Source: Rhizobium sp. Q54
GTDB taxonomy: Bacteria; Pseudomonadota; Alphaproteobacteria; SHVZ01
Direction of reading: 5' to 3'
Assembly: GCA_945871425.1 (NCBI GenBank)
Contig: CAMBVS010000002.1
Coordinates: forward strand, 1-64,000
Length of the DNA stretch: 64,000 bases
The notes beneath the pieces are model-generated. The model made no database searches, was not told the DNA's origin, and worked only from the letters and a program-made list of their open reading frames with translations. This document shows positions 1,620 through 4,979 of the stretch, one piece after another (the stretch's first letter is position 1; the number at the start of each line of letters is the position of its first letter). The position numbers and the translations under genes are program-made.

Positions 1620-2564
1620 ATGCAGGCCCTCGGCATGACGATGACAGCGCCGCCGGATTCGTCTAAATCGCTAGCTATGGACTGTCACGCGGAAGCCTTG
1701 CCCGGCCGCTCGCCGATCACCCTCGCCGAGCCGCGCCTGCTGTCGCTTCCGGTGGTGCTGGCGTCTCCGCACAGCGGCCGGCACTACGCACCCGAGTTCC
1801 TGGCCCTGGTCGAGGTGCCCGAGGGCGAGCTGAGGCGGGCCGAGGACGCCTTCGTCGACCGCCTGTTCGCCGCCGCCCCCGGGCTCGGCGTGCCGCTGCT
1901 CGCGGCCGAGTTCCCGAGGTCGATGGTCGACGTCAACCGGGAGGCCCTCGAGCTCGACCCCGAGATGTTCGACGGCGCATTGCCGGCCGAGGCGAACACG
2001 CGCTCGCCCCGCGTCGCCGCCGGTCTCGGCGCCATCCCCCGGCTTTCGGCCGGCGGGCGCCCGCTTTACCGCCGCCCGCTTCCGGTGGCCGATGCGCTCG
2101 CCTCGATCGATCGCTTCTGGCGTCCCTATCACCGCGCGCTTGCCGGCCTCGTCGACGCGGCCCAGGCGCGCTTCGGCGTCGCCCTCCTGATCGACTGCCA
2201 CTCGATGCCGTCCGCCGGCGGGGTCGGCGACACCGCCGGCGGAGAGACGCTGGCCGACATCGTGCTCGGCGACGCGTTCGGCCAGTCCTGCGACCCGCGT
2301 TTCGTCGAGCGGGCCGAGACCTATCTCGCCGGCCACGGCTACGCCGTCGTCCGCAACACGCCCTATGCCGGCGGCTTCACCACGCGCCACTACGGACGGC
2401 CCGCCGAGGGCATCCACGCACTCCAGATCGAGATCAACCGCGCGCTCTATCTCGACGAGGCGCGCATCGAGCCGATTGCCGCCTTCGCCGCCGTCTCTCG
2501 CGACCTCCTCGGCCTGGTCGAGGCGCTCGGGCAAGCCTCCCTGGAGATCCGCGGCCCGCGATGA
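1620..2564 (+). CDS. N-formylglutamate amidohydrolase family protein
   Basis: A 314-residue zinc hydrolase of the HutG-like N-formylglutamate amidohydrolase family, which releases formate and L-glutamate at the end of one histidine degradation route. Visible motifs are SPHSGRHY (metal His), AEFPRSMVDVNRE and LLIDCHSMPS, with the C-terminal IEINRALYLDE typical of the family. ATG 1620 was chosen because gggagg lies 8 nt upstream; a later ATG at 1677 would also keep the whole domain. No other histidine-utilisation gene is nearby, so the substrate may be another N-acyl amino acid. Its stop overlaps the start of the next gene (ATGA). Confidence 0.85.
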   Translation: MQALGMTMTAPPDSSKSLAMDCHAEALPGRSPITLAEPRLLSLPVVLASPHSGRHYAPEFLALVEVPEGELRRAEDAFVDRLFAAAPGLGVPLLAAEFPRSMVDVNREALELDPEMFDGALPAEANTRSPRVAAGLGAIPRLSAGGRPLYRRPLPVADALASIDRFWRPYHRALAGLVDAAQARFGVALLIDCHSMPSAGGVGDTAGGETLADIVLGDAFGQSCDPRFVERAETYLAGHGYAVVRNTPYAGGFTTRHYGRPAEGIHALQIEINRALYLDEARIEPIAAFAAVSRDLLGLVEALGQASLEIRGPR

Positions 2565-3094
2565 GCGACGAGCCGATCATCCGTCCGGCGACGCCGGCGG
2601 ATCTGCCCGCGATCCAGGCGATCTACGCCCACCACGTCGCCCAAGGCCTTGCCAGCTTCGAGGAGGTGCCGCCGGACGTCGAGGAGATGCGCCGGCGCTT
2701 CGCGACGCTGACCGAGGCGGGTTTCCCCTACCTGGTGGCCGAGGCCGAGGGCCAGGTGCTGGGCTATTCCTATTGCGGCCCCTACCGTCCCCGGCCGGCC
2801 TATCGCTTTTCGGTCGAGAACTCGGTCTATCTGGCGCCCGAAGCGGCGCGGCGCGGTATCGGGCGACGCCTGCTGGAGACGCTGATCGAGCGGGCGACGG
2901 CTCTCGGCAAGCGCCAAATGGTGGCCGTAATCGGCGACAGCGCCAACCATGCCTCGATCGGGCTGCATACGGCGCTGGGCTTCAGGATGGTGGGGAAGGT
3001 CGAAGGTGCGGGCTTCAAGCACGGCCGCTGGGTCGACAGCGTCCTGATGCAACGCCCGCTCGGCCCCGGCGCCTCGACCCCGCCCTCGGCTTGA
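2561..3094 (+). CDS. GNAT N-acetyltransferase, phosphinothricin/methionine-sulfone acetyltransferase type
   Basis: A 177-residue GNAT protein whose start IIRPATPADLPAIQAIYAHH and core YLAPEAARRGIGRRLLETLIERA contain the acetyl-CoA loop RRGIGR. The segment NHASIGLHTALGFRMVGKVEGAGFKHGRW is characteristic of the Pat/Bar/MddA branch, which acetylates the amino group of phosphinothricin-like or oxidised methionine analogues. The ATG overlaps the upstream stop by 4 nt, so the two genes are probably co-translated. The natural substrate cannot be read from sequence. No U-run terminator follows on this strand. Confidence 0.85.
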   Translation: MSDEPIIRPATPADLPAIQAIYAHHVAQGLASFEEVPPDVEEMRRRFATLTEAGFPYLVAEAEGQVLGYSYCGPYRPRPAYRFSVENSVYLAPEAARRGIGRRLLETLIERATALGKRQMVAVIGDSANHASIGLHTALGFRMVGKVEGAGFKHGRWVDSVLMQRPLGPGASTPPSA

Positions 3095-3103
3095 GAGCCG
3101 GCC

Positions 3104-3137
3104 AAAAAAAGAAGAGGCCGTGCCCGAAGGCACGGCC
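3104..3137 (-). terminator. Rho-independent terminator, minus strand
   Basis: Stem GGCCGTGCC/GGCACGGCC (9 bp, 3116-3137) with a UUCG tetraloop, followed on the minus strand by TCTTCTTTTTTT. It ends the candidate small RNA and/or the minus-strand MaoC-HEPN transcript. On the plus strand the hairpin lacks a U-run. Confidence 0.85.
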
Positions 3138-3206
3138 CGAGTTTAGGGAGGAAACGCCCATAAGGGCATTGCGTTGGACGGGCCCGAAGGCTTGCATCCG
3201 CCGCGT
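3104..3206 (-). ncRNA. candidate small RNA with a CCUCCC loop
   Basis: The minus strand has a promoter-like TTGACT (3235-3240), about 100 nt of structured sequence and a perfect terminator. In order the RNA shows a small GCCC-UUAU-GGGC hairpin, a GUUU/AAAC hairpin that puts CCUCCCU (3145-3151) in its loop, and a 9-bp stem GGCCGUGCC closed by UUCG with a UCUUCUUUUUUU tail. Loop-exposed CCUCC motifs that mimic an anti-Shine-Dalgarno are known from alphaproteobacterial small RNAs (the ar14/cuckoo group, Rhodobacter CcsR RNAs). The likeness is judged by eye. It lies 129 bp beyond the stop of a minus-strand gene and could instead be that gene's 3' end. Confidence 0.55.
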
Positions 3207-3211
3207 TGCAA

Positions 3212-3240
3212 TATGTGCTCCCGCGGCGCAGCAAAGTCAA
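3212..3240 (-). promoter_or_regulatory. sigma70-like promoter of the candidate small RNA
   Basis: TTGACT at 3235-3240, a 17-nt spacer, then CACATA at 3212-3217 (minus strand). The -35 box is near consensus and the -10 is weak. The predicted start is near 3206. The surrounding 3180-3330 stretch is noticeably more AT-rich than the flanking genes. Confidence 0.5.
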
Positions 3241-3334
3241 TCCGCGAATTTATCTCTCAATTTGATCAATCGATTAAGTAGCGTTTCACATCGAACCCAA
3301 ACTGGAGCGGGCTAAATATGGTGCGGCGCAACCG

Positions 3335-4123
3335 TCAGCCGATGGGCAGCGCCGGCGACACCGCGCGGGGCAGGTCGAACTGGTCCGAGGCACGGACGTC
3401 GATGTCCGCAACCGAGCGGGCCAGCAGGCTTGAATCCGAGAAGAGCTGATCGACCGTGAGTTCGATCGGCTGACCGACCCGGGCCCGGCCTTCGCGGTCG
3501 GTCCCGGCGAAGCGGCGGGTGGCCAAGCCGCGGTGACGCGCGATCAGGTTGCGGATCTCGACCAGGCGGGCCACCCGGTCGCGGACGCTGTCCTCGACGA
3601 AGAGCGCGAAGCCGAACCGATCGGCGACCCAGCGTTCGAGCGCCTCCAGGCCCGCGGCCGAGAGCTGGAAGACGCGGTCGCGGACCAGGGTATCGACGAT
3701 CTCGTCGACGGAGTCGTGCTCGACCAGAAGCTCGAGCGGCACGCCCTCGCCCGGCCCCAGCGCGCGCGGGTTGTTGACGGCGAGCAGCACGGTCAACTCG
3801 GCGAGATAGGCCAGATAGCTGTCGACGACGCGGCTCAAGACCATGTGCAGGAAGACGTGGCGCTGGCCGCGAAGCGTGCGGGCCATCGCTCCCTCGGCCG
3901 ACGGCACTTGGGCGCCGCCGCCGACGGGGCGGCCGCTGACACCGGGCGGCACCGCCTCGGATGCCAGCCGCGCCATGTCGTCGACGCGAAGCGCCAGGTC
4001 GGAGACGAATCCGATGAAGCGCCAGAGCTCCGCATGGGTGCGGAAGAACCGGGCGCAGGCGTCCGACATCGGATCGGGCGGCAAGGGCGCGGTCGACGCA
4101 GAGGCCGAGTGTCCGCTCTCCAT
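3335..4123 (-). CDS. HEPN-like helical protein, unrecognised
   Basis: A 262-residue, mostly helical protein that I cannot assign to a named family. The second half has EIRNLIARHRG (R191, N192, H197), which fits the Rx4-6H motif of HEPN domains, often RNA-binding or RNase units in toxin-antitoxin and defence proteins. The middle (RHVFLHMVLSRVVDSYLAYL) is helical too. The start ATG 4123 is 1 nt after the stop of the MaoC-type gene, so the two are tightly coupled. The N-terminal 20 residues are low in complexity, and ATG 4069 (MSDACARFF) is an alternative start. The HEPN reading is inferred from one motif. Confidence 0.6.
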   Translation of the reverse strand: MESGHSASASTAPLPPDPMSDACARFFRTHAELWRFIGFVSDLALRVDDMARLASEAVPPGVSGRPVGGGAQVPSAEGAMARTLRGQRHVFLHMVLSRVVDSYLAYLAELTVLLAVNNPRALGPGEGVPLELLVEHDSVDEIVDTLVRDRVFQLSAAGLEALERWVADRFGFALFVEDSVRDRVARLVEIRNLIARHRGLATRRFAGTDREGRARVGQPIELTVDQLFSDSSLLARSVADIDVRASDQFDLPRAVSPALPIG

Positions 4124-4124
4124 C

Positions 4125-4979
4125 TCAGGCCTCCGCCAGCATCGCCTCGCCCTCCATGGCGAGGGCGCCGGTCTCGTTGGCGGCCCAAAGGGCGACCGCC
4201 TTGCCGGACTCCGCCGGCTTGCCGCCGACAGTGAGCGGACGGTCGGCGAAGACCGGCGACAGCGCCCGGAAGCTGAAACCCCGCACGCGGGCATCCGGCC
4301 GCTGCCGTCGCAGAAGGTCGAGCATCAGCGTCGCCTGCAGCGGTCCGTGCACGACCAGGCCGGGATAGCCCTCGATCGCCGTCACGTAAGGATGGTCGTA
4401 GTGGATGCGGTGGCCGTTGAAGGTCAGCGCCGAATAGCGGAACAGCAGGACCGGATCGGGGACCAGACGCCGCGTCCAGGCGGCATCCGCCGGCTGAGGC
4501 TTTGCCGCCGGCGCCGGGTCGCCGGGCTTCGGGCTGCCGCGATAGACGATGTCGTGCTCCTCGTCGAGCGCCAGCACGCCCGCCGAAAGCACCTGATGGC
4601 GCACGGTGACGAAGACGAGAGGACCGGAGCGTCCTTCCTTGGCTTCGACCTTCAGGATCTCCGAATCGCGGCGGATCGGCTCGCCGAGCGGGATCGGCCG
4701 CAGGAAGGTAAGCCGGCTTCCCGCCCACATCCGCCGCGGCAGCGGCACCGGCGGCAGGAATCCGCCCCGCCGCGGATGACCATCGGGACCCAACTCGGAC
4801 GCGGGCTTGGCCTCGAGGAAATAAAGCCAGTGCCAGAGCGGCGGCAGAGCGTCGCCCGCCTTCGGTGGCGGATCGGTGCGATCGAGGGTTGCGGCGAGCG
4901 CCGCGACCGGCGGCAAGGCGGCAATGTCCTCGGCGCTGCTGCGCCGGCCGACCCATGCCTTCAACCCGTCAAGATCCAT
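4125..4979 (-). CDS. MaoC-like (R)-acyl dehydratase / FAS1-type dehydratase
   Basis: A 284-residue double hot-dog protein resembling mesaconyl-C4-CoA hydratase and the HTD2-type hydroxyacyl-thioester dehydratases. Motifs include PPLWHWLYFLEA near residue 45, MWAGSRLTF, and YSALTFNGHRIHYDHPYVTAIEGYPGLVVHGPLQATLM, where FNGHRIHYD carries the hydratase Asp/His pair. It would hydrate or dehydrate a CoA thioester. ATG 4979 has GGAG upstream and fits the family N-terminus. It is the first gene of a two-gene unit with the HEPN-like protein, which is an odd partner. Confidence 0.8.
   Translation of the reverse strand: MDLDGLKAWVGRRSSAEDIAALPPVAALAATLDRTDPPPKAGDALPPLWHWLYFLEAKPASELGPDGHPRRGGFLPPVPLPRRMWAGSRLTFLRPIPLGEPIRRDSEILKVEAKEGRSGPLVFVTVRHQVLSAGVLALDEEHDIVYRGSPKPGDPAPAAKPQPADAAWTRRLVPDPVLLFRYSALTFNGHRIHYDHPYVTAIEGYPGLVVHGPLQATLMLDLLRRQRPDARVRGFSFRALSPVFADRPLTVGGKPAESGKAVALWAANETGALAMEGEAMLAEA

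Follow-up and report, generated by a model that had tools for sequence, protein, structure and literature searches.

On comparative sequence evidence, the minus-strand segment at positions 3174–3101 of the window (the whole stretch of 64,000 nucleotides that was analyzed) is a genuine, conserved small RNA gene, by which the known family αr8 gains a member from an unstudied lineage. The favored reading, with a probability of about 0.9, is that of an αr8 RNA with a predicted minus-strand promoter of its own and an intrinsic terminator, which would act by Hfq-assisted seed pairing and would be repressed by PhaR. In the cmscan analysis, the model RF00519 (suhB/MmgR, αr8 family) matched this segment over its full length (model positions 1–77 of 77) with 63.2 bits, the cut-off being 41. 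With the Rfam covariance models, searching the window gave an E-value of ~1e-10 and searching a 600-base stretch gave one of ~1e-12. The 5′ end of the transcript probably lies further upstream, near 3203, as judged from the predicted promoter. Of 60 sampled relatives, 32 carried RF00519 above the cut-off; every one of the five other genomes of the genus was among them, as was the only other genus in the family. A first-pass annotation of this DNA had proposed a candidate small RNA at this place, and the full-length match and the conserved stems show it to be real. The features of the locus are listed in the table.

Table. Features of the αr8 locus and its surroundings (positions in the window).
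Feature	Position	Strand	Basis
αr8 (suhB/MmgR/SisA) small RNA	3101–3174	−	RF00519 match over whole model
Hairpin SL1 (AAUGCCC UUAU GGGCGUU)	3153–3170	−	Fold; compensatory GC→AU in two relatives
Conserved 10-mer UUUCCUCCCU, anti-Shine-Dalgarno seed	3145–3154	−	Exact sequence
Rho-independent terminator, UUCG tetraloop stem and U-rich tract	3105–3138	−	Terminator scan; compensatory pairs
Extra 5′ hairpin segment, outside the family core	3174–3200	−	Fold of 3203–3101; genus alignment
Predicted promoter: −35 TTGACT 3240–3235, −10 CATATT 3215–3210	3210–3240	−	Conserved in all congeners
Predicted PhaR/AniA-type palindrome 1, TGCGCCGCG	3222–3230	−	Fits YGCRNYGCR core (PMC12542648); genus-conserved
Predicted PhaR/AniA-type palindrome 2, TGCAACGCG	3202–3210	−	Motif match; genus alignment
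N-formylglutamate amidohydrolase (FGase), convergent with the small RNA	1620–2561	+	Pfam PF05013, E 2.9e-77
GNAT acetyltransferase, overlaps FGase, convergent with the small RNA	2561–3094	+	Pfam PF13420/PF00583

The 74-nt RNA was predicted to fold with −32.4 kcal/mol, compared with −20.0 ± 3.0 for dinucleotide shuffles (z −4.1). Because loop lengths vary, RNAalifold on a plain MAFFT alignment was uninformative, and the stems were then compared sequence by sequence, in relatives that had been picked by the RF00519 model, so that the stems are partly biased towards that model. The terminator stem (3138–3115), which had been described from the outset as a UUCG terminator and was recovered by the terminator scan, has 10 pairs, the UUCG loop and a U-rich tail, and showed many compensatory pair changes among the relatives. 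In SL1, paired replacements of GC by AU were seen in 2 of 29 sequences. The conservation of stems in related genomes that the first-pass annotation had called for as a check was thus present, with compensatory changes. That annotation had counted three hairpins, the 5′-most of which (about 3200–3174) was missing in two of six congeners (L013 and L015) in the genus alignment. It had also described the region as AT-rich; this held for the upstream DNA (3203–3334, 50% GC; whole window 67%) but not for the small RNA itself, which has 62% GC.

The anti-Shine-Dalgarno motif CCUCCCU reported earlier is present at 3151–3145 of the minus strand, inside the exact family 10-mer (3154–3145), and UUCCUCCC did not vary in 27 aligned relatives. 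The motif had been placed in a GUUU/AAAC hairpin loop; in the minimum-energy fold, however, it is left unpaired in the stretch that separates SL1 from the terminator, and the first two U of the 10-mer may pair in SL1. The αr8 structure in the literature (PMC12559287) agrees with a single-stranded seed between hairpins. The GUUU/AAAC hairpin found no support: it showed no compensatory changes, and 3 of 29 sequences have A·C at the closing pair. All four of its pairs could form in 21 of the 29 sequences, GUUU itself belonging to the fixed seed, and the pair breaks wherever the G of GUUU turns to A. It is possibly a weak alternative structure.

Upstream of the RNA, the −35 element was invariant in the genus alignment, the block TTGACTTtGCTGCgnCGCGGg was nearly invariant within the genus, and the promoter block 3240–3200 was kept in all congeners and, for the most part, in the family's other genus. 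The spacer between −35 and −10 is long (19 nt, or 18 nt if ACATAT is taken as the −10), for which reason the consensus scanner made no promoter call. The minus-strand promoter of the first-pass annotation, with TTGACT and a −10-like CATATT conserved in the genus, is therefore retained as a predicted element, and sequence evidence supports it together with the anti-Shine-Dalgarno motif.

Most αr8 RNAs adjoin an N-formylglutamate amidohydrolase gene (PMC12559287), and this canonical neighborhood was found here as well. Convergent FGase was present at 22 of 30 RF00519 loci selected by the model, 12 of which had a GNAT gene between FGase and the RNA. A test set unbiased by the RNA model was obtained by fetching 80 loci via the FGase protein alone, some of them cut by contig ends. 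RF00519 was detected in 49 of these 80 loci, on the strand opposite to FGase in all 49 and downstream of FGase in 48. Additionally, a tRNA-Val(gac) gene lies upstream of FGase at 445–519 of the window (minus strand); a tRNA gene likewise lies on the opposite strand upstream of FGase in most loci from other alphaproteobacteria, which gives a conserved arrangement tRNA-FGase-(GNAT)-αr8 in alphaproteobacterial FGase loci. On the same strand as the small RNA and upstream of it, an ORF was listed at 3335–4294 (minus strand, 319 aa, start uncertain).

The two predicted PhaR/AniA-type palindromes flank the −10 element, palindrome 1 lying between −35 and −10 and palindrome 2 just past −10. The search motif YGCRNYGCR is the core of the PhaR motif in PMC12542648. 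It was found within 50 nt upstream in 18 of the 30 model-selected loci (mononucleotide shuffle mean 0.7, maximum 5) and within −68 to +8 in 29 of the 49 FGase-chosen RF00519 loci (dinucleotide shuffle mean 6.0, maximum 15, 200 shuffles). At least two genomes are common to both sets, and the palindrome counts are not independent events because the sequences are related. When the half-sites were spaced by 0, 2, 3 or 4 instead of 1 in the FGase-chosen set, the motif was found in 1, 18, 1 and 4 of the 49 loci, respectively; most of the 18 loci with spacing 2 seem to belong to a Reyranella-like clade that has TTCGCAGGTGCAC. A further peak of PhaR palindromes was seen in this set 178–112 nt upstream of αr8. 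Among ten loci inspected, most of those with the motif at this distance resemble Reyranella/Enhydrobacter, with one common site at about −145, and the peak appears to be largely one clade.

PhaR and two phasins are encoded in the genome, with a palindrome upstream of all three genes. At the phasin locus L033 (about 1188–1252) the palindromes TGCACTGCA and TGCAGTGCA lie at −118 and −62, respectively, and at L034 (about 1348–1356) TGCACTGCA lies at −33. The palindromes upstream of both phasin genes suggest that a PhaR regulon works in this lineage. In S. meliloti the mmgR promoter has a PhaR site to which purified PhaR binds (PMC12542648), and the same article relates, from Ceizel Borella 2018, that MmgR is raised on loss of PhaR. 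The conserved palindromes suggest that many lineages have kept the carbon-storage control of S. meliloti mmgR; the conservation of the palindromes is the one point that goes somewhat beyond the literature found.

By analogy, we infer a mode of action like that of the αr8 RNAs of S. meliloti and C. crescentus. The RNA would be transcribed from its own conserved minus-strand promoter and stop at the strong intrinsic terminator. Its single-stranded 10-mer would most likely pair, assisted by Hfq, with mRNAs at Shine-Dalgarno regions resembling GGGAGGAAA and lower the translation of these targets. PhaR (AniA) would probably repress the small RNA promoter, and such repression would tie the RNA to polyhydroxybutyrate and the carbon-storage state. 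SisA of C. crescentus represses mRNAs via the same seed (PMC12559287), and in S. meliloti phasin protein levels are reduced by MmgR, for which no direct target is proven. A search for hfq gave no hit in this draft, which is 83% complete, or in three of the five congeners; since the gene is present in the other two congeners and in the family relative, a gap in the draft is likely. For the phasins and phaR as pairing targets, the duplex energies were within those of shuffles; the start regions of the phasins paired no better than shuffles, and hence these proteins are unsupported as direct targets.

Targets were screened among the genes of the genus with AGGGAGGAA, the 9-nt complement of the seed, located 4–11 nt before ATG. 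Three genes of this genome carried it before ATG, two of them encoding family-5 solute-binding proteins, and throughout the genus solute-binding proteins made up 14 of the 25 genes so found. A control with the strong Shine-Dalgarno sequence AAGGAGGAA gave 7 of 25, namely five by Pfam and a further two, L171 and L173, that are evidently orthologous to L153/L157. The enrichment over this control was not significant (Fisher p 0.08, and ~0.3 with orthologues collapsed) and is a lead only. Tentatively, PhaR control of FGase-linked αr8 may be an ancestral, widely kept alphaproteobacterial circuit, with periplasmic solute-binding proteins as the main targets of silencing by the RNA in this genus; we consider this combined proposal doubtful. 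If it were true, carbon-storage status would set nutrient uptake.

These target data bear on another reading, in which the αr8 RNA would be an AbcR-like regulator with periplasmic solute-binding proteins of ABC and TRAP transporters as main targets and no special link to polyhydroxybutyrate. The share of solute-binding proteins among the seed matches would fit such a role, as would the absence of any match to ar15 (AbcR) in the genus. However, the control weakens the former point, the ar15 search lacked a positive control, and the PhaR palindromes point to a link with carbon storage, so that this alternative seems rather unlikely. The segment could also be no independent RNA but just part of the transcript of the upstream ORF (minus strand, about 4294–3335), as its 3′ untranslated region or terminator, given that this ORF ends just upstream of the segment on the same strand. 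We regard this as very unlikely: the promoter block is kept as described above, the RNA and FGase are conserved together across the class, the αr8 RNAs known from S. meliloti and C. crescentus are transcribed on their own, and a Pfam search with the ORF gave no match.

The first-pass annotation had assigned the RNA to another family, that of the ar14 or cuckoo/CcsR-type small RNAs with a CCUCCC loop, with which it shares the exposed CCUCCC motif and an intrinsic terminator. The search with the Rfam ar14 model that it had proposed was carried out and gave no match up to an E-value of 1, whereas RF00519 matched strongly over its full length; membership in ar14 was refuted by this comparison of covariance models. 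The cuckoo/CcsR RNAs are tandem hairpin RNAs with CCUCCUCCC loops. CCUCCUCCC is absent from the sequence and a single RNA stands at the locus in place of a tandem array, so that the likeness to cuckoo/CcsR extends to the CCUCCC motif only. With the canonical αr8 neighbor FGase adjacent as well, this assignment is extremely improbable, and the αr8 reading is preferred.

A second small RNA candidate was observed in the same genome, at L002:1501–1576 (minus strand; G000:C62:4747–4822). It consists of an SL1 hairpin, a single-stranded GCCUCCCUGUUCAACU and a UUCG terminator, and it scored below the cut-offs of both SorX (36.6 bits, cut-off 46.6) and suhB (31.4 bits, cut-off 41). About 100 nt at this locus hardly vary among the six genomes of the genus. 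By eye, its flanking genes are a probable molybdopterin oxidoreductase (MsrP-like) and a LysR-type gene.

Apart from the conservation of the palindromes, these results amount to the correct annotation of a known RNA and add an unstudied lineage to a small RNA family that is widespread in the alphaproteobacteria. Among the closest known systems, MmgR of S. meliloti (RF00519) resembles this RNA in the full-length model match, the order of hairpin, 10-mer and terminator, the PhaR palindrome in the promoter, and the phaR and phasin genes in the genome. In contrast, two palindromes are present here while one is listed for mmgR (PMC12542648), and the RNA of this unstudied lineage has an extra 5′ hairpin. 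SisA of C. crescentus (αr8) shares the same 10-mer UUUCCUCCCU and the linkage to FGase (PMC12559287); Caulobacter, however, has four siblings and the sponge CrfA, whereas here there is one clear copy and one sub-threshold SorX/αr8-like candidate. With ar14 (NfeR1) and cuckoo/CcsR the RNA has in common an anti-Shine-Dalgarno motif of the CCUCCC type, and it differs from them in its locus, in being a single RNA, and in lacking a match to the ar14 model.
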